A stretch of DNA of 64,000 nt, taken from Actinoplanes sp. L3-i22 (GTDB taxonomy: Bacteria; Actinomycetota; Actinomycetes; Mycobacteriales; Micromonosporaceae). The DNA is taken from contig NZ_AP024745.1 in NCBI RefSeq assembly GCF_019704555.1, positions 10,157,501 to 10,221,500 of the forward strand, in the 5' to 3' direction. Position 1 is the stretch's first letter; each line of letters opens with the position of its first letter. Shown one piece after another: positions 5,173 through 58,326 of the stretch. A program made the translations under genes and the position numbers. The notes beneath the pieces were generated by a model. It was not told the DNA's origin. It did not search any database and saw only the letters and a program-made list of their open reading frames with translations.

Positions 5173-6154
5173 CGTGCTCGGCGACCTGTTGCGCTGGTGG
5201 TCGGCGGGCGAGCCGGCCGGGCTGGCGATCGTGACCGCGACCTGGTCGAGCGCGCCCCGGCAGGTGGGCGCGGCGATGGCGGTCGGGCCGGACGGGGTGG
5301 CGGTGGGCAGCGTGTCCGGCGGGTGCGTGGAGGCCGCCGTCTACGACCTGTGCCTGGAGGTGGCCGAGACCGGCGAGGCGCGGACCGCCAGTTTCGGGGT
5401 GGCCGACGATCTCGCGCTCGGCGTCGGGCTGCCCTGCGGCGGGACGATCGACCTGGCGATCGGCCGGGTCGACCACACCACATTTCCGGATTTGCCGGAT
5501 TTGACCTCGGCGGTCGAGGCCGAGCGGCCGGTCGCCCTGCTGGTGGAGCAAACCGGATATTCCATTCTTAAAACCGATTTTTACGTACGCTCGGAGCCCG
5601 CCGACAACCGCACGGTGATCCCCTTCTTCCCGCCGCCCCGGATGCTGGTCTTCGGCGCCACCGACCACGCCGCCGCGGTCGCCCGGATCGGCGGCTTCCT
5701 CGGCTACCGGGTGACCGTGTGTGACGCCCGGCCGATCTTCGCCACCCCCCGCCGCTTCCCCGGCGCGGACCAGGTGGTGGTCGACTGGCCGCACCGCTAC
5801 CTGGCCGCCGAGGCCGCGGCCGGCCGGATCGACAGCCGCACGGTCCTCTGCGTCCTCACCCACGACCCGAAGTTCGACGTGCCCACCCTGGAGCTGGCGC
5901 TCCGGCTGGACGTCGGCTACGTCGGCGCGATGGGCTCCCGGCGCACCCACCACGACCGGCTGGCCCGGCTGCGCGAGGCCGGCCTGGCCGAGCCGGAGCT
6001 GGCCCGGCTGTGCTCGCCGATCGGGCTGGACCTGGGCGCGCGCAGCCCGGAGGAGACCGCGGTGAGCATCGCCGCGGAGATCATCGCGCTGCGGCACAGC
6101 GGGACCGCCGAACGGCTCTCCACACTCTCCGGGCCGGTCCACAAAAAACTCTGA
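5165..6154 (+). CDS. xdhC: XdhC/CoxI family molybdenum-cofactor insertion factor
   Basis: 329 aa from the ATG at 5165, chosen because it overlaps the upstream stop and gives the family N-terminus MRDVLGDLLRWWSAGEPAGLAIV. The N-terminal XdhC_CoxI domain has SSAPRQVGAAMAV and GSVSGGCVEAAVYD, with the conserved Cys. The C-terminal domain from about residue 150 is a Rossmann fold (RMLVFGATDHAAAVARIGGFLGY) ending in YVGAMGSRRTHHDRL and LDLGARSPEETAVSIAAEI. By family it binds the molybdenum cofactor and delivers it to xanthine dehydrogenase or CO dehydrogenase-type enzymes. The inter-domain linker is locally AT-richer. The client enzyme must be encoded outside this window. Confidence 0.9.
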   Translation: MRDVLGDLLRWWSAGEPAGLAIVTATWSSAPRQVGAAMAVGPDGVAVGSVSGGCVEAAVYDLCLEVAETGEARTASFGVADDLALGVGLPCGGTIDLAIGRVDHTTFPDLPDLTSAVEAERPVALLVEQTGYSILKTDFYVRSEPADNRTVIPFFPPPRMLVFGATDHAAAVARIGGFLGYRVTVCDARPIFATPRRFPGADQVVVDWPHRYLAAEAAAGRIDSRTVLCVLTHDPKFDVPTLELALRLDVGYVGAMGSRRTHHDRLARLREAGLAEPELARLCSPIGLDLGARSPEETAVSIAAEIIALRHSGTAERLSTLSGPVHKKL

Positions 6155-6229
6155 ACCGGCGAGCAACCTTTCCGGGTCGCGGGCGCACTCCCCGGATGTC
6201 CCCCGACACCAATCCCCGAAGGGTTCGAC

Positions 6230-7033
6230 GTGTTCAAGAATCTGCGGAAGCGCTGGCGTGCCGGTCTCGTGGCGATCACCGCGGTCGGGCTGGGTCTCGG
6301 CGCGGTCGTCTACACCCAGGGCGCCTCGGCGGCGACCTGGCCGACCGCCACCGGAACCACCAAGCTGACCGCGACCAAGGCGGTCTCCGGCACCTTCGAC
6401 GGCGCCCTCAAGCGGTTCGTCGGCAGCGGCGCGCTCGGCACCGACTCGCAGGACGAGGACCAGGACCCGCTGTTCGAGCTGGCCGACGGCGCCGTGCTGA
6501 AGAACGTGATCCTCGGTGACCCGGCCGCCGACGGGGTGCATTGCCTCGGCTCCTGCACGCTGACCAACGTCTGGTGGGACAACGTCGGCGAGGACGCGGC
6601 CACCTTCAAGGGCGGCACCTCGGCGGTCTACACGGTGAACGGCGGCGGGGCCAAAGGCGCCGACGACAAGGTGTTCCAGCACAACGGCGGCGGCACGCTG
6701 ACGATCAAGAACTTCGCGGTCGACGACTTCGGCAAGCTGTACCGCTCGTGCGGCAACTGCAAGACCCAGTACAAGCGCAAGGTCGTGATCGACAACGTGA
6801 CCGCGACGTACCCGGGGCTGTCGCTGGTCGGCATCAACTCGAACTACGGCGACACCGCGACGCTGTCCAACATCACGATCGTGAACGACACCAAGAAGAA
6901 GCTGGCCGTCTGCATCACCTTCAAGGGCAACAACACCGGCGCCGAGCCGACCAAGCTGACGACGTTCACCGGCGCGACCGGCGGCGACGGGGTGAACTGC
7001 AAGTTCACCACCGCCAACGTGACCTACAAGTAG
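6230..7033 (+). CDS. Secreted pectate lyase, PL3 family
   Basis: 267 aa. A Sec signal peptide covers about residues 1-34 (basic KNLRKRWR, hydrophobic core, cleavage after QGASA). The mature part is a short right-handed beta-helix of the PL3 type: VLKNVILGDPAADGVHC, NVWWDNVGEDAATFKG and ADDKVFQHNGGG are family landmarks, with acidic Ca-binding residues and Cys pairs. The reaction is Ca-dependent beta-elimination of polygalacturonate. The GTG start is preceded by a GAAGG-like Shine-Dalgarno. The gene ends convergently with the HAD gene, overlapping by 10 nt. The kdgK-eda pair at 10839-12523 could process the resulting keto-deoxy sugars. Confidence 0.93.
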   Translation: MFKNLRKRWRAGLVAITAVGLGLGAVVYTQGASAATWPTATGTTKLTATKAVSGTFDGALKRFVGSGALGTDSQDEDQDPLFELADGAVLKNVILGDPAADGVHCLGSCTLTNVWWDNVGEDAATFKGGTSAVYTVNGGGAKGADDKVFQHNGGGTLTIKNFAVDDFGKLYRSCGNCKTQYKRKVVIDNVTATYPGLSLVGINSNYGDTATLSNITIVNDTKKKLAVCITFKGNNTGAEPTKLTTFTGATGGDGVNCKFTTANVTYK

Positions 7034-7689
7034 TCGGCCAGGTCCCGCAGTGAGCCGATGCGGTGCGGTTCGTCGGCCGGCCCGATCCCCAGCCGGTCCA
7101 GGTGAACCGCCCGCAGCCCGGCGGCGCGAGCCGCCAGCACGTCCAGATCGTGCCTGTCCCCAAGACTGAGGACCTCCCCGGGCCTCAGTCCCCAGCGGGC
7201 GACTGCCCCGCGGAACGCGCCCGGATCGGGCTTGGCCATCCCCAGATCGTCGGGAGTCCACACGGGCCCGAGATCGGCCAGGCCCATCCGGGCGAGTTTT
7301 CCCCGCTGCTGCGTCGCGGCGCCGTTGGTCAGCACGGCGGTCTTCAGACCCTTCGCGGCGACCAGGGCCAGCGCCTCGGCGACGTCGTCGTAGGCGTGGT
7401 AGGCCTTCTCATACTCGACGAGATAACCGGCGAAGATCAGATCAAGAGCTTCTTCGCCGTACGGGAAACCGAGCTCCCGCAATCGTCGGCGGCGCTGTTC
7501 GGCGTAGTCGACCTCGCGCCGCCGCCAGGCGGCCAGATGCTTCTCGGCGACCGCGTGCCAGCGGGCGATCGCCTCGTCGTCGGCGACCATCCCGACCGTC
7601 GGGAGCCAGGCCTTGAGCGCCGTCTCGACCGACGAATCGTGATCCCCGAGCGTGCCGTCCAGATCGAACAAAACTCCTTGTAGCGTCAA
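7024..7689 (-). CDS. HAD-superfamily hydrolase (phosphoglycolate phosphatase-like)
   Basis: 221 aa. Motif I is FDLDGTLGD with nucleophile Asp9 and Asp11. Motif II is AVLTNGA, and motifs III/IV lie in KPDPGAFRGAV and SLGDRHDLDVLAA. A helical cap lies between motifs I and II, as in subfamily IA. A TTG start is inferred because it overlaps the upstream regulator stop in TTGA and places the DxD motif at the usual distance from the N-terminus; no ATG or GTG is available there. It is a small-molecule phosphatase of unknown substrate, the third gene of the cysteine hydrolase-GlxA-HAD operon. Confidence 0.88.
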   Translation of the reverse strand: MTLQGVLFDLDGTLGDHDSSVETALKAWLPTVGMVADDEAIARWHAVAEKHLAAWRRREVDYAEQRRRRLRELGFPYGEEALDLIFAGYLVEYEKAYHAYDDVAEALALVAAKGLKTAVLTNGAATQQRGKLARMGLADLGPVWTPDDLGMAKPDPGAFRGAVARWGLRPGEVLSLGDRHDLDVLAARAAGLRAVHLDRLGIGPADEPHRIGSLRDLADYL

Positions 7690-47017: not shown

Positions 47018-47708
47018 ACCCCGGTGGACCAAGCCCCCTGGGAGGGCGGGCCATGTGCGGACGCGACCGGCCCGCCTGACGACCCGGGTCGTGCAGTCTG
47101 CTGCCGCGAGCCACGGACGTTGCGGGCCACGCGCCGCCACCTGCCGGCAGCAAGACGCGAGCCGCCAGCCCAAATCGCGGCGCGGGCACGGCGCGAGGCC
47201 GCGGGCACGGCGCGAGGCCGTCAGCACAGCGCGGCGCGAGGGCGCGGAGTGTGAGGCGCGGCGCGGCGCGAGGGCGCGGCGCGGCGCGAGGGCGCGGCGC
47301 GGCGCGAGGGCGCGGCGCGGCGCGAGGGCGCGGCGCGGCGCGAGGGCGCGGCGCGGCGCGAGGGCGCGGCGCGGCGCGAGGGCGCGGCGCGGCGCGAGGG
47401 CGCGGCGCGGCGCGAGGGCGCGGCGCGGCGCGAGGGCGCGGCGCGGCGCGAGGGCGCGGCGCGGCGCGAGGGCGCGGCGCGGCGCGAGGGCGCGGCGCGG
47501 CGCGAGGGCGCGGCGCGGCGCGAGGGCGCGGCGCGGCGCGAGGGCGCGGCGCGGCGCGAGGGCGCGGCGCGGCGCGAGGGCGCGGAGTGTGAGGCGAGGG
47601 CGCGGCGCGGCGCGAGGGCGCGGAGTGTGAGGCGAGGGCGCGGGCGCGAGGGCGCGGGCGCGAAGGCGCGGGCAAGCGCGCGAAGCCGGATCCGAGCGCG
47701 AAAGGACG

Positions 47709-47784: not shown

Positions 47785-49947
47785 TCAAGCAGCCTGGGTC
47801 CGGACCGCGCGGTGGACGCCGAGGATCGGGTCCACCTCGTACATCCGGGCCTCCGCGATGTCGAAGTACATCCCGGTCAACCGCAAACGCCCAGCCGCCT
47901 CCGCCGTCTGCACGACCGGATGGCTGCGGAGGTTGGCCAACTGCTGGACCACGTTGTCCGTGCAGCACCGCTCCTCGTCGCCCGGGTCGGTGAAGTGCAC
48001 CCCGGACATCCCGAGCCAGTCTCCGAGCGACGACCCCGGCGCCGCCGCCCCGGACATCAGGGCCCGGACGGCGCCGCACCCGGAGTGGCCGCAGACCGTG
48101 ATCGTGGTGACCCCGAGGACCTCGACGGCGTACTCGATGGCCGCGCCGACCGACGCGTCCCCGACGCCGGGCAGCGCCGACGATCCGAGCGGGCGCTGGG
48201 CGGAGGCGTGCGGTGGGACGATGTTGCCCACGTTGCGGACGCAGAACAGGTCGCCCGGACCACTGGCGGTGATCAGGTTGGGCACCAGCCGGGAGTCCGC
48301 GCACGTGATGAAGAGCTGTTCCGGCCGCTGGCCGTCGCGGGCGAGGGCGGCCAGGTGCGGCCGTACCATCGGCGCGACGTTGCGTTCGAACTCGGCGATG
48401 CCGGCCGCCATCGCGTCCCGGCGCTGGTGGTCGATGCCCTGCCAGCGGGTCCAGGAGCCGACCAGGCGGGGGGTGCTCCGGCTGCCGCCGAGCCGGCCCG
48501 AGGTGGCCCGGTGGAACCAGGAGTCGTGCACCTCGTGGATGCGGACCCGGCCGCCGGCTTTCCGGTACTGGTCCTCCCACGTCTTGATCGTCTCGAACGC
48601 CCCGTGGTCGAGGTAGTCGAGGTGCAGTTCGACGTCGACGTCCCCGTTCGGCGGGATCGCGCCGAACTCGCGGGTGAGCCGGGCCGACTCGATGAACGCG
48701 AGCGTGCCGCTGATCCGGACCAGCCATTCACCCGGGGCGCGCTGCACGGTGCGGATCTCGCACCGGGTGAGCCGCCACAGGATCAGGACCGCGGCGGTCG
48801 CCATGCCGAGCGCCACGCCCGTGAGCAGGTCGACAAGAACCACACCCAAAGCCGTGATCAGGTACGTCGGTAGCTCCCCGTGCCGGGCGTAGGTGCGGAT
48901 CTGGGCCAGGTTGATCAGCTTGACCCCGACCACGATCAGCACCGCGGCCAGCACCGCCATCGGGATCTTCTCCAGCAGGGCCGCGCAGAGCAGCACGAAC
49001 ACCGCGACCCACACGCCGTGCAGGATCGCCGACGCCCGGGTCTTCGCGCCGGCCGCCACGTTCGTCGAGCTGCGCACGATCACGCCGGTCACCGGCAGGC
49101 CGCCGAGCAGCCCGGAGACGGTGTTGGCGGCGCCCTGCCCGATCAGCTCCTTGTTGAGCCGGGCCCGCGGCCCGTCGTGCATCCGGTCGACGGCGACCGC
49201 GGAGAGCAGCGATTCCACGCTGGCGACCAGGGCGATGGTGAGGACGGCGACGGTGATCCGGCGCAGCGGCGCGTCCGGCCAGACCGGGGTGATGAGTTCG
49301 GCGAGCGGCTCCTCGGGCAGGTTGACCCGGACCAGTTGGGCGCCGGTCACCCAGGCCAGCGTGGTGACGCCGACGACCGCGACCAGCGCGGCCGGCAGCA
49401 CCGAGACTTTCACGAGGCGCGGCCAGAGCACCAGGATCGCCACGGTGAGCAGGCCGAGCAGGGTGGCGGTGCCGTGGTGGTCGGCGATCTGGGCGGGCAG
49501 TTCCCGGATGTTCTCCCAGGCGCTGCTCCGCGGTGCGCCGCCGAGCAGCACGTGCACCTGGCTGAGCGCGATGACCAGGCCGATGCCGGCCAGCATGCCG
49601 TGCACGACGGCGGGTGAGAGGGCGAGTGCGGCGCGTCCCAGGCGGGAGACGCCGAGCAGGATCTGGACGATTCCGGCGACGGCCACGATCGCCGCGGTGC
49701 CGGCGAACCCGAAGTCCGCCACAGCTCCCGCCACGATCACGGTCAACCCGGCGGCCGGGCCGCTGACCTGCAATGGGGCGCCACCTAGAGCGCCCGCGAC
49801 AATGCCGCCGACAACCGCGGCGACCAACCCCGCCAGCAGCGGGGCCCCGGACGCGGCGGCGATGCCGAGCGACAGGGGGATGGCGATCAGGAACACGACG
49901 ATCGACGCCGGCAAGTCCCGGCGCAACAACTGCGTCAAGTCGGACAT
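47785..49947 (-). CDS. SulP anion transporter fused to beta-carbonic anhydrase
   Basis: 720 aa. Residues 1-400 are SulP/SLC26-type with about 11-12 helices (DLPASIVVFLIAIPLSLGIAAASGAPLLAGLVAAVVGGI, GLLGGLPVTGVIVRSSTNVAAGAKTRAS). Residues about 405-485 resemble a STAS domain, and 515-720 are a beta-carbonic anhydrase with zinc ligands in ITCADSRLVPN and VCGHSGCGAVRAL. The fusion couples bicarbonate (or sulphate) movement with CO2/bicarbonate interconversion at the inner membrane face. The ATG at 49947 has no Shine-Dalgarno; TATTTT ends 6 nt upstream, so the message is probably leaderless, with the palindrome at 49947-49964 over its promoter. Confidence 0.93.
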   Translation of the reverse strand: MSDLTQLLRRDLPASIVVFLIAIPLSLGIAAASGAPLLAGLVAAVVGGIVAGALGGAPLQVSGPAAGLTVIVAGAVADFGFAGTAAIVAVAGIVQILLGVSRLGRAALALSPAVVHGMLAGIGLVIALSQVHVLLGGAPRSSAWENIRELPAQIADHHGTATLLGLLTVAILVLWPRLVKVSVLPAALVAVVGVTTLAWVTGAQLVRVNLPEEPLAELITPVWPDAPLRRITVAVLTIALVASVESLLSAVAVDRMHDGPRARLNKELIGQGAANTVSGLLGGLPVTGVIVRSSTNVAAGAKTRASAILHGVWVAVFVLLCAALLEKIPMAVLAAVLIVVGVKLINLAQIRTYARHGELPTYLITALGVVLVDLLTGVALGMATAAVLILWRLTRCEIRTVQRAPGEWLVRISGTLAFIESARLTREFGAIPPNGDVDVELHLDYLDHGAFETIKTWEDQYRKAGGRVRIHEVHDSWFHRATSGRLGGSRSTPRLVGSWTRWQGIDHQRRDAMAAGIAEFERNVAPMVRPHLAALARDGQRPEQLFITCADSRLVPNLITASGPGDLFCVRNVGNIVPPHASAQRPLGSSALPGVGDASVGAAIEYAVEVLGVTTITVCGHSGCGAVRALMSGAAAPGSSLGDWLGMSGVHFTDPGDEERCCTDNVVQQLANLRSHPVVQTAEAAGRLRLTGMYFDIAEARMYEVDPILGVHRAVRTQAA

Positions 49948-49964
49948 TAGGTAAAAATACCTAA
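49947..49964. promoter_or_regulatory. TTAGGTA/TACCTAA palindrome over the SulP-CA start
   Basis: TTAGGTA and TACCTAA arms with a 4-nt A/T centre form a perfect 18-bp dyad whose end is the first base of the ATG. It embeds the -10-like TATTTT. The arms resemble DtxR/IdeR-family half sites (TTAGGT...ACCTAA), but the spacer is 6 instead of 7, so the binding protein is unknown. The surrounding 40 nt are unusually AT-rich. Confidence 0.6.
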
Positions 49965-51401: not shown

Positions 51402-53990
51402 ATGAAGGCGGTCGCTATGACGGAGTCCCTTCCGGCGCTGGAGTCCCCCCTGCCCGACGACCCCGACGCGCTCACCCTCGGCGCCGAGGAGGAGCTGCAC
51501 GTCGTCGATCTGGCCACCCGAGAACTCGTCCCCCGGGCCCCGGAGATCCTCGATCAGCTCGACCCGCAGCACTTCTCGGCCGAGCTGCACCGCTCGGTGG
51601 TGGAGACGAACACGCCGGTCAGCACCACGCTGGACGGTCTGCGTGAGGGCATCACGGCTCGACGCCGTACGGCGATCGGGGTTGCCGAATCGCTCGGCCT
51701 GGGCCTGGTCGCGGCCGGCACGGTCCCCCTGGTCGACCTGGACGCGCTGCCGGTCACCCCGACCACCCGCTACCGCCGGATGCTCAGCGAGTACCAGATG
51801 CTCGTCCGCGAGCAGCTGATCTGCGGCGCCCAGGTGCACGTCGGCGTGCCGGACCGGGACGAGGCGGTCTCGGTGGCGCAGCGGGTCTCGCCGTCACTCC
51901 CCGTGCTGCTGGCCCTGTCGACCAGCTCGCCGTTCTGGATGGGCGAGGACTCCGGGTACGCCAGTGCCCGCTCGCTGGTCTGGACCCGCTGGCCGACGGC
52001 CGGCGACAGCGGCGCGCTGCACTCCGCCGAGGAGTTCGACATGCTGGTCAACGACCTGATCGCGTCCGGGACGATCAGCGACCCGAAGATGGTCTACTTC
52101 GACGTGCGCCCGTCCGCGCACGTGCCGACCGTGGAGCTGCGCGTCACCGACGCCTGCCCGGACGTGGACACCGTGGTGCTGCTGGCCGGCCTGTTCCGGG
52201 CGCTGGTCCGGCGCGCCCAGGAGGACTACCGGGCCGGTCGGCCGCTGCCGGCGGCCCGCCCGCCGCTGCACCGGGCCGCGATGTGGCGGGCGGCGCGCTC
52301 CGGCCTGGAGGGCGACCTGCTCGACCTGCCCCGCTCCCCGGTGCCGGTCCCGGCCGCGCTGGCGGTCGAGCACCTGGTCGGCGAGCTGCGGCCGCATCTG
52401 GAGGCGCTCGGCGACTGGGAGCAGGTCTTCGACCTGTCGGTACGGGCCCTGAGCCGGGGCAGCTCGGCCTCCCGGCAGCGGCGCGCGCTGGCCCGCCGGG
52501 GCCGGATCGCGGACGTGGTGGACCTGCTGGTGGCCGAGACCCGGGGCGGCACGGCGACCAGCACCCCGGTGGCGCCGACCCGGCTCAGCCCCTACACGGT
52601 CGACGGCGACGAGGCGTTCCCCGGCGAGGTCGCCGCGGAGTACACCGGCATCGTCCCGGTGCTGACCGCGCTCGGCGCGACCGGGCTGCGGCACCGCGAG
52701 GACGCCCGGGACGAGGAGCAGCGGGCCAACGGCGTCACGTTCAGCGTGGCCGGCGAGGCGGCCACCCGGCTGTTCCCGTTCGACCTGGTCCCGCGGGTGG
52801 TCCCGGCCGCCGACTGGGCGGCGCTGCGGGGCGGGCTGACCCAGCGGGTGCGCGCGCTGAACGCGTTCCTCGCCGACGTCTACAACGGGCGGCAGATCGT
52901 CGCGGACGGGATCGTCCCGGAGTGGGTGATCGACGGCTCGCCCGAGCTGCGGGCCAGCGGCGCGCTGGCGGCGAACGCCGGGGTCCGCGCCCAGGTGGCC
53001 GGCGTCGACCTGGTCCGGGACGCGAACGGCCAGTGGTGCGTGCTGGAGGACAACCTGCGGGTGCCGTCCGGGATCGCGTACGCCATGCAGAACCGCCGCC
53101 TGACCGAGAGCATCCTGCCCGAGCTGCCCCGCCCGGGCGGTCTGATCTCGGTCGAGGACACGCCCCGGCTGCTCAGGGAGGCGCTGCTGGCCGCGGCCGG
53201 CCCGGCGGCCGGCGACGACCCGGCGCTGGTCGTGCTCAGCCAGGGCCCGGACGACTCGGCCTGGTTCGAGCACCGGATGCTGGCCGAGGCGATGGACGTG
53301 CCGGTGGTCCGCAGCACCGAGCTGTTCGTCGAGGACGGCCGGGTGCAGCGGCTGCGGGACGGCAAGCGGTACCCGGTGGACGTGATCTACCTGCGGATGG
53401 GCGAGGACAGCCTGGTGCACTCCCCCGGCGCGGACGGGATGCCGCTGGGCCCGAGCCTGGTCGCCGCGCTGCACGCGAAGACCGTCACGCTGGCCAACGC
53501 GCTGGGCAACGGGATCGGCGACGACAAGGCGGTCTACGCCTACGTGCCGAAGATGATCGAGTTCTACCTGAACGAGAAGCCGCTGCTGGCCGACGTGCCG
53601 ACCTACCTGTGCGGGCTCCCGGAGCAGCTCTCCGAGGTGCTGTCCCGGCTGAACGAGCTGGTCAGCAAGCCGGTCGACGGCTACGGCGGGGACCGGATCG
53701 TGATCGGCCCGCACGCCTCGGCCGACGAGCTGGACGCGCTGCGCCGGCAGATCCGGGCGGCGCCGCACCGCTGGGTGGCGCAGGAGCTGGTCCAGCTCTC
53801 CACCCACCCGGTCTTCGACGGCCACCAGCTCGCGCCGCGGCACGTGGACCTGCGCGCCTTCGTCTTCTCCGGCGCGGGCGAGCCGGTCGTCGCGCCGGCC
53901 GCGCTGACCCGGGTGGCCCCGGCCGGCTCCATGATCGTCAACTCGTCGCGCGGCGGCGGGTCCAAGGACACCTGGCTACTGGGAGGCTGA
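51402..53990 (+). CDS. GCS2-type carboxylate-amine ligase fused to circularly permuted ATP-grasp
   Basis: 862 aa from ATG 51402; ATG 51417 is an equal alternative (both have Shine-Dalgarno 8 nt upstream). The first about 400 residues are a YbdK/GCS2 ligase: TLGAEEELHVVDLATREL, SVVETNTPVSTTLDGLREGI, GAQVHVGVPDRDEAV, YFDVRPSAHVPTVELRVTDACPD. Residues about 440-860 are a type 2 circularly permuted ATP-grasp: GVTFSVAGEAATRLFPFDLVPRV, VIDGSPEL, LEDNLRVPSGIAYAMQNRR, DVIYLRMGEDSL, and KPVDGYGGDRIVIG. Two peptide- or amide-forming ATP enzymes in one chain imply stepwise ligation of amino acids. It is coupled to AsnO-like (2 nt) and S9 peptidase genes. Confidence 0.9.
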   Translation: MKAVAMTESLPALESPLPDDPDALTLGAEEELHVVDLATRELVPRAPEILDQLDPQHFSAELHRSVVETNTPVSTTLDGLREGITARRRTAIGVAESLGLGLVAAGTVPLVDLDALPVTPTTRYRRMLSEYQMLVREQLICGAQVHVGVPDRDEAVSVAQRVSPSLPVLLALSTSSPFWMGEDSGYASARSLVWTRWPTAGDSGALHSAEEFDMLVNDLIASGTISDPKMVYFDVRPSAHVPTVELRVTDACPDVDTVVLLAGLFRALVRRAQEDYRAGRPLPAARPPLHRAAMWRAARSGLEGDLLDLPRSPVPVPAALAVEHLVGELRPHLEALGDWEQVFDLSVRALSRGSSASRQRRALARRGRIADVVDLLVAETRGGTATSTPVAPTRLSPYTVDGDEAFPGEVAAEYTGIVPVLTALGATGLRHREDARDEEQRANGVTFSVAGEAATRLFPFDLVPRVVPAADWAALRGGLTQRVRALNAFLADVYNGRQIVADGIVPEWVIDGSPELRASGALAANAGVRAQVAGVDLVRDANGQWCVLEDNLRVPSGIAYAMQNRRLTESILPELPRPGGLISVEDTPRLLREALLAAAGPAAGDDPALVVLSQGPDDSAWFEHRMLAEAMDVPVVRSTELFVEDGRVQRLRDGKRYPVDVIYLRMGEDSLVHSPGADGMPLGPSLVAALHAKTVTLANALGNGIGDDKAVYAYVPKMIEFYLNEKPLLADVPTYLCGLPEQLSEVLSRLNELVSKPVDGYGGDRIVIGPHASADELDALRRQIRAAPHRWVAQELVQLSTHPVFDGHQLAPRHVDLRAFVFSGAGEPVVAPAALTRVAPAGSMIVNSSRGGGSKDTWLLGG

Positions 53991-53992
53991 TG

Positions 53993-55765
53993 ATGTGTGG
54001 CATCGCCGGTGAGATCCGTTACGGCGAGCGTTCCGCGGACGTGGAGGCGGTCCGCCGGATGCTGCCCGCGCTCGAGTCCCGGGGGCCGGACGGTGAGGGC
54101 GTCTGGTCGCAGGGGCGGATCGCTTTCGGTCATCGGCGCCTGAGAATCATCGACCTGAGCGAGACCGGCGCGCAGCCGATGACCGACGCCGAGCTCGGGC
54201 TGACGGTGGTCTTCAACGGCTGCATCTACAACTACCGTCAGTTGCGCGAGGAGCTCCGGGGGTACGGCTACCGGTTCTTCTCCACCTCGGACACCGAGGT
54301 GATCCTCAAGGCGTACCACCGGTGGGGCGCGGACTGCGTCACGCACTTCCTGGGGATGTTCGCGTTCGCCGTCGCCGAGCACGACACCGGGACCGTCACG
54401 CTGGCCCGGGACCGGCTCGGGATCAAGCCGTTGTACCTGGCCGAGACGCCCGGCGGGGTGCGCTTCGCGTCGACCCTGCCGGCGCTGCTCGCGGCCGGCG
54501 GGGTGGACACCACGATCGACGAGGTCGCGCTGCAGCACTACATGACGTTCCACTCGGTGGTGCCGGCGCCGCGGACCATCCTGTCCGGGATCCGGAAACT
54601 GCCACCCGCGACGGTGCGGGTGGTCAAGGCCGACGGCGCGGTCACCGACCGCTGCTATTGGGAGGCAGATTTCCGCCGTACGTCGTCAATCGCCAAGGAC
54701 GAGTGGGCCGCAGCCGTAAGGGAGAAGTTGAATCTCGCCGTGCAACGGCGGATGGTCGCGGACGTGCCGGTGGGCGTGCTGCTCTCCGGCGGCCTGGACT
54801 CCAGCCTGATCGTCGCGCTCCTCGCCGAGCAGGGCCAGCACGGGCTCACCACGTTCAGCATCGGGTTCGAGTCGGGGGGCGGCGAGAGCGGTGACGAGTT
54901 CGCTTACTCGGATCTGATCGCCAAGCAGTTCGGGACCGAGCACCACCAGATCAGAATCGGCCAGGACCGCTTCCTGCCGGCCGTCGACCGGACCGTGGCG
55001 GCGATGAGCGAGCCGATGGTCAGCCACGACTGCATCGCGTTCCACCTGCTCAGTGAGGACGTGGCGAAGCAGGTCAAGGTGGTGCAGTCCGGGCAGGGCG
55101 CGGACGAGATCTTCGCGGGTTACAGCTGGTATCCGCCGCTCGCCGGAGTGCCGCGCGAGCGGGCCGCCGAGGCGTACGCGAAAGAATTCTTCGATCGTCG
55201 GCACGACGAGCTCGGCACCCAGCTCAACCCGGCCTGGCACCTCGACCGGGACCACGCCATGGCGTTCGTCGCGGAGAGCTTCGGCCGCCCCGGCGCGGAG
55301 ACCGCGGTCGATGCGGCGCTGCGGCTCGACTCCCAGGTGATGCTCGTCGACGATCCGGTCAAGCGGGTCGACAACATGACTATGGCGTGGGGGCTGGAAG
55401 CGCGCGTACCCTTCCTCGATCACGAGCTGGTCGAGCTCGCCGCGGCCTGCCCGCCCGAGCTGAAGCTGGCCTCGGACGGCAAGGGGGTGCTCAAGGACGC
55501 GGCGCGCGGGCTCGTGCCGGACGAGGTGATCGACCGGACCAAGGGTTACTTCCCGGTTCCCGGGATCCGGCACCTGGAGGGCGCGATGCTGGCGAGGGTG
55601 CGCGACGCGCTGCACGACCCGGCGGCCCGGCACCGCGGGCTGTTCCGGCCGGAGTACGTGGACGCGCTGCTCGCCGACCCGAACACCCCGCGGACCACGC
55701 TCGGGGCGAACCAGCTGTGGCAGATCGCGCTGCTGGAGATGTGGTTGCAGGACAAAAAGCTTTAG
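53993..55765 (+). CDS. Asparagine-synthase-family amidotransferase (AsnB/AsnO type)
   Basis: 590 aa. The ATG at 53993 is chosen to leave Cys2 as the N-terminal glutaminase nucleophile (MCGIAGEIRYG); ATG 53990 would hide it. Class II glutaminase marks: ESRGPDGEG, FGHRRLRIIDL, FNGCIYNYRQLREEL. The synthetase part has the PP-loop VLLSGGLDSSLIVALLAE and GQGADEIFAGYSWYP. It resembles N-acetylglutaminylglutamine amidotransferase (AsnO), which amidates a dipeptide osmolyte, more than plain asparagine synthetase. Strong GGGAGG site 7 nt upstream. The ligase partner here is the GCS2-ATP-grasp fusion, not the Ngg protein known from proteobacteria. Confidence 0.9.
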   Translation: MCGIAGEIRYGERSADVEAVRRMLPALESRGPDGEGVWSQGRIAFGHRRLRIIDLSETGAQPMTDAELGLTVVFNGCIYNYRQLREELRGYGYRFFSTSDTEVILKAYHRWGADCVTHFLGMFAFAVAEHDTGTVTLARDRLGIKPLYLAETPGGVRFASTLPALLAAGGVDTTIDEVALQHYMTFHSVVPAPRTILSGIRKLPPATVRVVKADGAVTDRCYWEADFRRTSSIAKDEWAAAVREKLNLAVQRRMVADVPVGVLLSGGLDSSLIVALLAEQGQHGLTTFSIGFESGGGESGDEFAYSDLIAKQFGTEHHQIRIGQDRFLPAVDRTVAAMSEPMVSHDCIAFHLLSEDVAKQVKVVQSGQGADEIFAGYSWYPPLAGVPRERAAEAYAKEFFDRRHDELGTQLNPAWHLDRDHAMAFVAESFGRPGAETAVDAALRLDSQVMLVDDPVKRVDNMTMAWGLEARVPFLDHELVELAAACPPELKLASDGKGVLKDAARGLVPDEVIDRTKGYFPVPGIRHLEGAMLARVRDALHDPAARHRGLFRPEYVDALLADPNTPRTTLGANQLWQIALLEMWLQDKKL

Positions 55766-55775
55766 GAGGTACGTC

Positions 55776-57512
55776 TTGGAGGGTCAGCTCCACCGCGTCG
55801 ACGTCACCGTGCTGCCGTCGTTCTCGCTGTACACCTCGGCGATCGCCGGGAACTGGTCGGTGACGCTGTCACCGGACGGGCGGCATGCGGCGTACGTCTC
55901 GGACCGCAGCGGCACCCCGAGCGTGTGGGTGCAGCCGATCGGGAGCGAGCTGGCCTTCCAGATAGCGTTCGCCGAACCGGTGAGCGCGGTCGCCTGGTCG
56001 TCCGGCGGCGGCTGGCTGGCCTGCCAGATCGCCCCCGGCGGGGCACCCCGGCAGGAGGTCTGGCTGGTCCGGCCGGACGGCTCCGACCTGCACCAGGTGG
56101 CCGGGTTCGGCGCCGACACCGCGGACAACCCGCGGTGGCTGCCGGGGCGGCCGGTGCTCGCGCTGACCGAGAACCTGACCGAGGCCGTGCTGATCGACGT
56201 GGTCGCCGGGACCCGGACCGTGGTCGCCTCCGGTGACCTGATCTCGCTCTGCGACGTCGACCCGGCCGGCCGGGCCGTCCTGCTCCGGCGCGGGCCGCGC
56301 GGCGACCGCCGGATCGTGTCCACCCAGGGGGAGACGATCTGCCGGGGCGAGCAGGCCGTGTTCAGCCCGGGTGGCGGGTGCGTCTACGCGCGCAGCGAGG
56401 ACGGCGAGTTCCCGGCCCTGGTCCGGGTGGCCGGCGGCACCACCGAGGTGCTCGCCGCCGGCGACCGCGAGGTGGAGACGTTCGCGGTGACCGCGGACGG
56501 GCGGACCGCCGCGGTGCTGTGGAACGTGCACGGCGGCGAGTCGGCGCTCTCGCTGCTCGACCTGGACCACTCCGGGTCCGGTGAGCTGATCGACGTGCCG
56601 CTGCCCGGCCCGGTGGTCTCCGGCCTGACCTGGAGTTTCGACGGGTCGGCGCTGGCCTTCACCGCGGAGGGCCCGGGGCAGCCGCACGGCGTCTGGGTCT
56701 GTGCCCGGGACGGGAGCGACCTGCGGGCGATCTCCGCCGAGCCGGCCGCGGCCGACGCCGTCCGGCCCGCCCTGGTGAGCTTCCCCGCGCACGACGGCCT
56801 CACCCTGACCGGCTGGCTGTTCACCCCGCCCGGTCCCGGCCCGCATCCCACGGTGATCTGGCTGCACGGCGGCCCGGAAGCGCAGGAGCGGCCCGGTCAC
56901 GGACCGCTGTTCCAGTCACTCGCCCAGCGCGGGATCGCGGTGCTGGCGCCGAACGTCCGCGGGTCCTCCGGCTTCGGCCGCACCTTCGTGAACGCGGACA
57001 ACGTGAAGCTGCGGTACGACGCGATCGAGGACGTCCGGACCTGCGCCGCCTTCCTGGCCGGCGCCCCGCGGATCGGGGTGATGGGACGCTCCTACGGCGG
57101 ATATCTGACGCTGGCCGCGCTCTGCGCCTATCCCGACCTGTTCGACGTCGGCATCGACGTCTGCGGCATGTCCGACTTCGCCACCTTCTACGAGCACACC
57201 GAGCCGTGGATCGCGTCCGCCGCGATCAGCAAGTACGGCGACCCGGTGGCCGACGCCGACCTGCTGCGCGACCTGTCGCCGATCCACCGGCTGGACCGGC
57301 TGCGGGCGCCGCTGATGGTGGTGCACGGCGAGAACGACAGCAACGTCCCGGTGATCGAGGCCGAGCAGGTGGTCGCCGCCCTCGCCGCGCGCGACCACCC
57401 GCACCGGTACCTGCTCTTCCCGGGTGAGGGGCACGAGCTGCTGCACCGGTCGTCGCGGGCGTCCTACCTGCGCGAGACGATCGACTGGCTGACCACCCAC
57501 CTGCTGCGCTGA
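55776..57512 (+). CDS. S9 prolyl-oligopeptidase-family peptidase
   Basis: 578 aa from TTG 55776, with AGGAGG 6 nt upstream. Residues 1-330 form a beta-propeller of WD/TolB-like blades (SVTLSPDGRHAAYVSDRSGTPSVW, AVAWSSGGGWLACQI). Residues 340-578 are the alpha/beta-hydrolase with triad Ser439 (GRSYGGY), Asp521 (GENDSNVP) and His553 (PGEGHELLH). No signal peptide, so it acts in the cytoplasm, probably cutting a small peptide. Only 10 nt separates it from the amidotransferase, so it likely recycles or matures the product of that pathway. Confidence 0.92.
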   Translation: MEGQLHRVDVTVLPSFSLYTSAIAGNWSVTLSPDGRHAAYVSDRSGTPSVWVQPIGSELAFQIAFAEPVSAVAWSSGGGWLACQIAPGGAPRQEVWLVRPDGSDLHQVAGFGADTADNPRWLPGRPVLALTENLTEAVLIDVVAGTRTVVASGDLISLCDVDPAGRAVLLRRGPRGDRRIVSTQGETICRGEQAVFSPGGGCVYARSEDGEFPALVRVAGGTTEVLAAGDREVETFAVTADGRTAAVLWNVHGGESALSLLDLDHSGSGELIDVPLPGPVVSGLTWSFDGSALAFTAEGPGQPHGVWVCARDGSDLRAISAEPAAADAVRPALVSFPAHDGLTLTGWLFTPPGPGPHPTVIWLHGGPEAQERPGHGPLFQSLAQRGIAVLAPNVRGSSGFGRTFVNADNVKLRYDAIEDVRTCAAFLAGAPRIGVMGRSYGGYLTLAALCAYPDLFDVGIDVCGMSDFATFYEHTEPWIASAAISKYGDPVADADLLRDLSPIHRLDRLRAPLMVVHGENDSNVPVIEAEQVVAALAARDHPHRYLLFPGEGHELLHRSSRASYLRETIDWLTTHLLR

Positions 57513-57561: not shown

Positions 57562-58305
57562 TCACTGCCGCTGCTCGAGTCGCTCGATCCGCTCGATCAG
57601 CGGCTGCAGGGCCGCGGCCAGCAGCTGGGCCGGGTCGGCGCTGCCCGCGTTGCGCAGCTCGGAGTAGCCCGCGGCGGCGGCCGTGTTGGCCTGCAGATGG
57701 CGGTAACCGGCCAGCGCCGAGGCCACCGCCCGCCGGGTCAGCCGCGGATCGGCGCCGGCCGCCCGCAGCACCTGGCCGGCCCCGCCGTCCGGCTCGGCGA
57801 CCAAGCCGAGCAGCAGGTGCTCGCAGCCCACGTAGTTGTGCCCGAGGCCGACCGCCTCGCCGACGGCCAGCTCCAGTGCGCCCGCCGCCGGGACGCTCAG
57901 GTGCACGCCCGGGCCCGGCCCGGGAGTCTCGTCGCCCGCCTGCTGCTCCAGGTCACGGGCCAGCCGGCCGGGCTCGATCTCCAGTGCTTGCAGCACGTGG
58001 ATCGCCAGGTTCGACCCCTCCGTCAGCATCCCGCCGAGCAGGTCACCGCTGGTCACCGACGTGCGCGCGGCGGCGCCGGCCCGCTCGACGGCCAGGCCGA
58101 GGACCGTGCGGCCGCGGCCGGTCATCAGCGGGAAGCGCTGCTCCAGGTCGGCGCCGGAGAGCTCGGCGAGGGACGTCTCGCGGATCGCGGTGACCCGGCG
58201 GACCGCCTGCTCCAGCGCCCGCTGGCAGATCGCCGAGACCGGCAGGCCGGTCTCCCTGACCGCCTCGGCCAGCTCGTCCGGCAGATACACATTGATCTTC
58301 GGCAT
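57562..58305 (-). CDS. Ribbon-helix-helix domain fused to Clp N-terminal repeats
   Basis: 247 aa from ATG 58305 with GGAGG 8 nt upstream. Residues 1-40 (MPKINVYLPDELAEAVRETG, then LPVSAICQRALEQAVRR) are a CopG-like ribbon-helix-helix DNA-binding head. Residues about 60-215 contain two Clp_N-type helical repeats (AARTSVTSGDLLGGMLTEGSNLAIHVLQAL and HNYVGCEHLLLGLVAEPDGGAGQVLRAAG), as in the substrate-sensing N-domain of ClpC. No AAA+ domain. It probably represses its own promoter at the 58327 palindrome and reads protein or peptide status through the Clp_N part. Confidence 0.9.
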   Translation of the reverse strand: MPKINVYLPDELAEAVRETGLPVSAICQRALEQAVRRVTAIRETSLAELSGADLEQRFPLMTGRGRTVLGLAVERAGAAARTSVTSGDLLGGMLTEGSNLAIHVLQALEIEPGRLARDLEQQAGDETPGPGPGVHLSVPAAGALELAVGEAVGLGHNYVGCEHLLLGLVAEPDGGAGQVLRAAGADPRLTRRAVASALAGYRHLQANTAAAAGYSELRNAGSADPAQLLAAALQPLIERIERLEQRQ

Positions 58306-58326
58306 CACGCCCACCTCCGTCAGACT

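Follow-up and report, generated by a model that had tools for sequence, protein, structure and literature searches.

A GCS2/ATP-grasp fusion ligase encoded beside AsnO in Actinoplanes sp. L3-i22: a candidate alternative to the NAGGN pathway

Here we describe a three-gene operon in a 64,000-nucleotide window of Actinoplanes sp. L3-i22 (contig NZ_AP024745.1, positions 10,157,501 to 10,221,500; the window is the whole stretch analysed, and its numbering is used below), which encodes a two-domain fusion ligase, an amidotransferase of the AsnO family and an S9 serine peptidase. Databases at present list the amidating enzyme as that of another known protectant, N-acetylglutaminylglutamine amide (NAGGN), whose cassette joins asnO to the synthetase gene ngg. 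By comparison with other genomes, the operon appears as a conserved gene set in which ngg, and with it the M42 peptidase of the NAGGN cassette, have been replaced. We consider the chances evenly balanced that it is an alternative AsnO pathway, in which a gamma-glutamyl peptide made by the fusion is amidated by AsnO and recycled by the S9 peptidase, the product not being NAGGN. A wider proposal, which we rate slightly short of even, is that a second pathway to gamma-glutamyl peptide amides, a new class of stress solutes, may lie behind many actinobacterial 'NAGGN amidotransferases', GCS2-type ligases having replaced ngg about three times with the AsnO acceptor site retuned each time. The three genes are as follows.

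51402-53990, + strand: fusion ligase, GCS2 plus circularly permuted ATP-grasp, 862 amino acids from the ATG at 51402 (Pfam)
53993-55765, + strand: AsnO-family class II glutamine-dependent amidotransferase, 590 amino acids (TIGR03104, structure model)
55776-57512, + strand: S9 (prolyl oligopeptidase family) serine peptidase, 578 amino acids (PF00326, 4.8e-40)

An earlier note on this DNA had read a run of three genes here, with gaps of 2 and 10 nucleotides, as a GCS2/ATP-grasp fusion, an AsnO-like amidotransferase and an S9 peptidase; all three open reading frames (ORFs) are present at 51402-57512 on the + strand with these gaps, and Pfam and TIGR models match the domain content. The fusion ORF has an alternative start at the ATG at 51417, which gives 857 amino acids as in database entry P0001, and the peptidase ORF has a TTG start with AGGAGG 5' of it.

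To place the operon, AsnO loci were collected from 61 genomes of the family (TIGR03104 over its cut-off in 15, with 17 matches), from 396 genomes of the window's phylum (in 54, with 55 matches) and from named loci comprising the best 80 of 583 confirmed matches, a set biased towards the window AsnO because only those 80 were kept; seven plasmid-derived loci, six of which contain AsnO, were also added. The family loci divide into eight with the fusion, seven with ngg and two with neither linked on the same strand. Among the phylum loci, 37 have ngg, seven GCS2 with ATP-grasp, six GCS2, one ATP-grasp only and four none or other, one of these four being cut by a contig end, while the best 80 named loci comprise 39 with GCS2 and ATP-grasp, 22 with ngg, eight with GCS2, seven with none, three with ATP-grasp and one of Rubrobacteraceae. 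The pooled set, which favours relatives of the window, holds 151 distinct AsnO loci after three duplicates were dropped, and at a linkage line of 100 bits 65 have ngg, 52 GCS2 with ATP-grasp, 17 GCS2, four ATP-grasp and 13 none; GCS2 and/or ATP-grasp is thus linked at 73, and 86 of the 151 have no linked ngg. At this line ngg occurs together with GCS2 or ATP-grasp at none of the 151 loci. The hydrolases follow the same division: M42 peptidase is found at 25 of the 65 ngg loci and none of the other 86, S9 peptidase at 72 of the 86 and none of the 65, and an NTN hydrolase (DUF1028, Pfam) at three of the 86 and none of the 65.

GCS2 and ATP-grasp form a single ORF in 39 of the 40 named loci having both, the fortieth being the Rubrobacteraceae locus L206. 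Of 12 distinct genomes that bear the fusion (eight from the family and five from the phylum genomes, G000 being in both), 11 have it immediately in front of AsnO. The earlier note had asked whether the genes co-occur elsewhere, and they do, the trio extending across many families; conserved co-occurrence across the family, phylum and pooled samples rules out chance neighbours. A search of the whole 12.0 Mb single-contig genome for the ngg synthetase (TIGR03103) gave nothing over the cut-off (165 bits at best, positions 241-527 only). The same holds for all 12 fusion-bearing genomes, six of which have weaker matches of 161-177 bits to the ATP-grasp part only. A tblastn search with the Azospirillum M42 peptidase gave no match within 18 kb around the operon. 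PF14403, the ATP-grasp family of the fusion, is absent from all three of the GCS2-AsnO-S9 genomes tested (G083, G252 and G187; five such occur in the phylum sample), so that at such loci GCS2 seems to suffice to feed AsnO with no help from this ATP-grasp, a kind also seen in named Streptomyces and Nonomuraea loci.

The fusion with AsnO was found in Micromonosporaceae, Pseudonocardiaceae, Frankiaceae (before AsnO at all four loci, L161, L169, L170 and L178), Mycobacteriaceae, Kineosporiaceae, Microbacteriaceae, Propionibacteriaceae, Nakamurellaceae and Streptosporangiaceae, in a family with a member that a source names Euzebyales, and in one metagenome-assembled genome labelled Nevskia, possibly mis-binned. 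The earlier note had set NAGGN in proteobacteria against this operon in actinobacteria, a division that does not hold: ngg accounts for most AsnO loci of the phylum sample (37 of 55), and a Micromonospora with asnO and ngg makes NAGGN, as determined by nuclear magnetic resonance (PMC8146288; this and the other papers given by PMC number are drawn on through excerpts). Canonical cassettes within actinobacteria thus rule out a strict split, and because of them we regard the operon as an alternative and not simply as the actinobacterial version. Micromonospora holds both kinds (the fusion in M. noduli and M. arida, the canonical cassette in M. marina and M. mirobrigensis), and Mycobacterium likewise has both ngg and GCS2 kinds.

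Some loci depart from these arrangements. Two genomes carry two AsnO copies, one beside the fusion (G056; L042, L054) or in an ngg cassette (G045; L049, L053) and the other, in both genomes, with a generic, divergently oriented GCS2 about 2 kb away. Three Geodermatophilaceae loci (L188, L192, L211) have the order AsnO-S9-ATP-grasp, with no GCS2 found nearby, and two Kocuria loci (L180, L186) had no ligase or peptidase at the thresholds used in the 17.8 kb examined; their AsnO has an intermediate stretch at residues 567-572, H-T-P-L-R-S.

The N-terminus of the fusion is a GCS2 domain (PF04107, a YbdK-type carboxylate-amine ligase; amino acids 26-302, 3.7e-53), which by comparison has the usual GCS2 motifs, and the C-terminus a CP_ATPgrasp_2 domain (PF14403; amino acids 464-839, 1.1e-123), which refines the ATP-grasp class to the circularly permuted COG2308/PF14403 type. 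NCBI already names the protein 'carboxylate--amine ligase/circularly permuted type 2 ATP-grasp protein'. Its predicted structure (mean predicted local distance difference test score, pLDDT, 77.3; predicted template modelling score, pTM, 0.61) matches 3n6x (a COG2308 protein, E 6.6e-34), 1r8g (YbdK) and 1tt4 (a Salmonella relative), as well as human, potato, yeast and soybean glutathione or homoglutathione synthetases, and because of these matches we read the chain as a gamma-glutamyl ligase fold followed by a glutathione-synthetase-like fold. Relatives number 1948 proteins at E <= 1e-30 among 7995 candidates scored; both domains are present in all 120 relatives among the matches listed, the closest named one being from Actinoplanes sp. 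NPDC020271 (92%). The AsnO-linked fused GCS2 domains mostly have Gln for the first His of the HVH motif, in the form 'CG(A/T)QVHV'.

Such a fold pair also suits a thiol product such as glutathione amide, for which GCS2 would make gamma-Glu-Cys, the ATP-grasp domain would add Gly and AsnO would amidate the C-terminus. GCS2 belongs to the gamma-glutamylcysteine ligase superfamily, the model matches the synthetases just named, and glutathione amide exists in Chromatium (PMC7278568). We nevertheless think this quite unlikely, as AsnO retains candidates for the two residues that, in known AsnO, are proposed to recognise an amide side chain (see below) and the GCS2-only kind would end at gamma-Glu-Cys amide. 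Mycothiol, moreover, is the thiol mainly used by actinobacteria, and presumably by this organism too.

The ATP-grasp domain is about 38-45% identical to its COG2308 relatives among the matches listed. For COG2308 ATP-grasp operons a function in tagging or modification was reportedly proposed by Iyer et al. in 2009, and by analogy a protein or ribosomal peptide could be tagged here with short amidated chains that the S9 peptidase removes. COG2308 genes occur elsewhere beside alpha-E and transglutaminase genes (in one locus alpha-E without transglutaminase), and the Pup ligase PafA is among the relatives with a GCS2 fold (PMC2588565). The operon speaks against such tagging, which we would judge very unlikely: no precursor or tag gene was seen, Pfam finds neither alpha-E nor transglutaminase among the three genes, and the substrate of the known AsnO is a free dipeptide (PMC8070244). 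The fused ATP-grasps group apart from four alpha-E-linked ATP-grasps.

The earlier note had left it to be checked whether the amidotransferase is AsnO or AsnB. It scores 966.8 bits against TIGR03104, the NCBI NAGGN amidotransferase model (cut-off 570.1), more than twice its 441.2 bits against the general model TIGR01536 (cut-off 267.1), and at 285.3 bits falls under the PRK09431 cut-off of 499, so that it stands with AsnO and ordinary AsnB is ruled out. Its Pfam domains are GATase_7 and Asn_synthase, sequence and alignments give Cys2, SGGLDSS, QSGQGADE and K517, and the nearest solved folds to its predicted structure (mean pLDDT 90.0, pTM 0.91) are 7ylz (TsnB9) and then 1ct9 (AsnB). Passing TIGR01536 would allow ordinary asparagine synthesis with two unrelated neighbours, yet the doubled TIGR03104 score, the other asparagine-synthetase-like sequences of the same genome (L002-L004) and the persistence of the trio across many families make that highly improbable. 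TIGR03104 is itself blind to the kind of ligase: five GCS2-type AsnO proteins score 897-970, and ngg-type ones score 964, 1024 and 923 (L132).

Trees bear on how often the ligase has changed. At Rubrobacteraceae-type loci an ATP-grasp gene, in some also a separate GCS2 gene (L206 and its twin L115 have the two as separate genes), precedes AsnO, and an NTN hydrolase gene follows it; the GCS2 is extremely divergent and the ATP-grasp lies outside the fused group. In an AsnO tree of 60 of the 151 rows, built without the distinguishing columns discussed below, their AsnO falls among ngg-type AsnO (a 19-row clade, 95/99). Locus L133 has a GCS2 of another subfamily and an AsnO beside an ngg-type row (93/91), and is a possible third recruitment on this placement. 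In one tree the AsnB-like proteins of the Actinoplanes genome were chosen as outgroup and have very long branches; because the trees are unrooted or rooted on such branches, the direction of replacement follows from parsimony only.

Two short stretches of AsnO distinguish the kinds:

55121-55126, + strand: AsnO codons 377-378, Tyr377 and the variable residue 378 (alignments; dyad by E-x4-Y spacing)
55691-55708, + strand: AsnO codons 567-572, the columns best separating ngg-type from GCS2-type AsnO (alignments)

Only three columns (119, 525 and 567) hold different fixed residues in ngg-type and fusion-type AsnO at the 85% level. When all columns are ranked by separation, 567 leads, followed by 572 and 571, and the top six also include 569 and 574. 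In alignment rows that include a few duplicates, residue 567 is Leu (63) or Ile (two) in the 65 ngg-type rows and Arg in 67 of the 70 GCS2-type rows. Residues 567-572 read R-T-T-L-G-A in the window AsnO and mostly L-T-P-L-R-G in the ngg type, and residue 378 is His in 64 of 65 ngg-type rows and mostly Ser or Asp in the GCS2 type. At 567, 569, 571 and 572 the Rubrobacteraceae-type rows (three distinct) have Ser or Lys, Arg, Gly and Ser, and L133 has Thr, Asn, Gly and Ser. All columns were scanned for positions at which three groups differ at once from the ngg-type rows, namely the Rubrobacteraceae type, L133 and 80% or more of the GCS2 crown; the scan returned 378, 567, 569 and 572, with 0.03 expected if independent. 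As a control, 18 ngg-type clusters were scored alike over 7-9 GCS2-crown columns, and 16 depart in 0-2 of them, the Azospirillum and Sinorhizobium clusters counting as departing at 567 through Ile; the Rubrobacteraceae type departs in five of seven (22 overall), L133 in six of seven (78 overall), L053 and L054, with no assigned kind, in four, and Kocuria in five. The comparison shows that a few AsnO positions have changed in concert.

The likely meaning of these positions comes from relatives. A Glu-Tyr dyad is important by mutation in PesC, a relative of AsnO (PMC13060819); Tyr377 corresponds to its Tyr by E-x4-Y spacing alone, and residue 378 adjoins it. The same paper proposes a residue pair that reads the amide side chain in the known AsnO, without residue numbers in the text drawn on, and the candidates Asp346, Arg444 and Arg458 are invariant in both AsnO alignments, because of which we expect glutamine at the C-terminus here as well, and the remainder of the molecule to differ. 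We conjecture that a polar residue 567 reads a charged gamma-glutamyl end in place of the acetyl group.

These columns also bear on whether NAGGN is made by another route, with the fusion taking the place of ngg in the synthesis of N-acetyl-Gln-Gln and an acetyltransferase gene lying elsewhere. The NAGGN model score, the mere three columns fixed differently, NAGGN production by a Micromonospora (PMC8146288) and a Frankia AsnO cluster filed as NAGGN despite an 'Ngg' less than 15% identical to known Ngg (PMC5563000) all speak for it. However, Pfam finds no GNAT domain in the three operon proteins, GCS2 chemistry in relatives is gamma-glutamyl transfer, and the AsnO of three GCS2 lineages departs at the same few positions; we therefore rate this route unlikely, and the product is probably not NAGGN.

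We infer the substrates, the order of steps and the physiology of the alternative pathway as follows. From its family, the GCS2 domain would activate the gamma-carboxylate of glutamate with ATP for coupling to an amino acid or small peptide, and the ATP-grasp domain further along the chain, which resembles glutathione synthetase, would add another residue. AsnO, whose family function is known, would then use ammonia from glutamine to amidate the C-terminal carboxylate, most likely that of a glutamine, and the S9 peptidase would hydrolyse the peptide once no longer needed. The peptidase has a GRSYGGY motif and no evident signal peptide, both by eye, and from the latter we judge it cytoplasmic. 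A product of the gamma-Glu-...-Gln-NH2 type would have no net negative charge and could plausibly be a compatible solute; that it is a stress protectant or osmolyte is our guess. Comparison supports the earlier note's proposal that another ligase here serves to make a small amidated peptide.

Several observations weigh against this pathway or its repeated origin. Thirteen of the 151 AsnO loci have no linked ligase, although some are cut by contig ends and three carry a GCS2 judged unlinked, and in G368 (L148) S9 comes straight after the fusion, the intervening AsnO being absent. Residue 567 had already been noticed when the column scan was designed, two single control rows (L113 and L132) depart in four columns, both keeping Leu567, and L036 and L037 have Ile there. 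L133 sits on long branches (93/91, not starred) and elsewhere in another tree; a single clade uniting all ngg-type AsnO is rejected by a narrow margin only (approximately unbiased test, p 0.0395), and two to three independent switches are too few for a significant sign (independent-pairs) test. The Rubrobacteraceae GCS2, being so divergent, may use another substrate, and an orphan GCS2 without AsnO (L038, Mycobacterium branderi plasmid, 5992-7131) lies inside the fused-GCS2 clade. No biochemical, metabolite or expression account of any member was found in the literature searched.

The orphan GCS2 of L038 is near a CsbD-family gene, with no AsnO or ATP-grasp annotated in 13 kb. Around the operon itself, the flanking ORFs (preceding it, one that by eye is epimerase-like; following it, 57562-58314) are both on the opposite strand, from which the transcription unit is probably only the three genes. 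A search upstream for a SigF-like promoter (GTTT-N14-17-GGGTA, one mismatch per box, + strand only) gave loose matches and nothing usable. Further off in the window, a SulP sulfate-permease family transporter fused to a carbonic anhydrase domain (47785-49953, - strand; PF00916 and PF00484) has directly downstream of its C-terminal end a GC-rich tandem array (47179-47662; 18-nucleotide unit, about 26 copies) that is open in several frames on both strands.

No description of a GCS2/ATP-grasp-AsnO-S9 operon was found in the literature searched, which lay mostly outside subscription journals; Iyer et al. in 2009 are said to have surveyed such amidoligases, and the fusion may appear there. In Micromonospora, conservation of NAGGN clusters has been described (PMC12915310, PMC11537254). 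In the excerpts of PMC5563000, the AsnO of Casuarina Frankia is more than 60% identical to others and its 'Ngg' less than 15%, with a peptidase gene between them and no salt induction of asnO shown, and that study may have met the same anomaly. We do not count the stress studies of Frankia and mycobacteria as evidence on function: a polyethylene glycol-induced glutamine amidotransferase of Frankia alni, FRAAL1888, is tied to NAGGN by its authors (PMC5768760) and may be a different protein from this AsnO; an asparagine synthase and a carboxylate-amine ligase, possible relatives of these proteins, are SigF-dependent in M. smegmatis (PMC4694148); and NAGGN is mentioned in general terms only in the text drawn on for Nocardiopsis gilva (PMC5884947). 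If the alternative pathway is real, the NCBI equivalog name for AsnO is wrong for many actinobacteria, and so are genome papers that take asnO to mean NAGGN production; a group common in soil and in association with plants would then make a capped peptide of which we found no description. The AsnO pairs also form a natural series in which to follow the retuning of an amidotransferase acceptor site.

Among known systems, the operon is closest in logic to the NAGGN cassette asnO-ngg(-M42) of Sinorhizobium, Azospirillum, Pseudomonas and Micromonospora, with which it shares the combination of ligase, amidotransferase and peptidase; the window AsnO is 60-67% identical to AsnO of Azospirillum, Sinorhizobium and Micromonosporaceae ngg loci. 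The ligase, in contrast, is GCS2 plus circularly permuted ATP-grasp here and GNAT plus RimK-like ATP-grasp there, the ligase gene comes first, the peptidase is S9 rather than M42, and AsnO differs at 378 and 567-572. GshF, the bifunctional glutathione synthetase that adds the second residue with the ATP-grasp part of the same chain, likewise places a glutamate ligase before an ATP-grasp ligase, but the fusion has a GCS2-family ligase and a circularly permuted COG2308 ATP-grasp, and an amidotransferase follows. COG2308-COG2307 operons share the ATP-grasp family (solved relative 3n6x) and carry alpha-E, which adjoins the ATP-grasp gene in all four plasmid COG2308 genes compared, and often transglutaminase, whereas the three genes here have neither. 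With YbdK- and EgtA-type GCS2 ligases the fusion shares fold and motifs, apart from the Gln that mostly replaces the first His of HVH in its AsnO-linked members.

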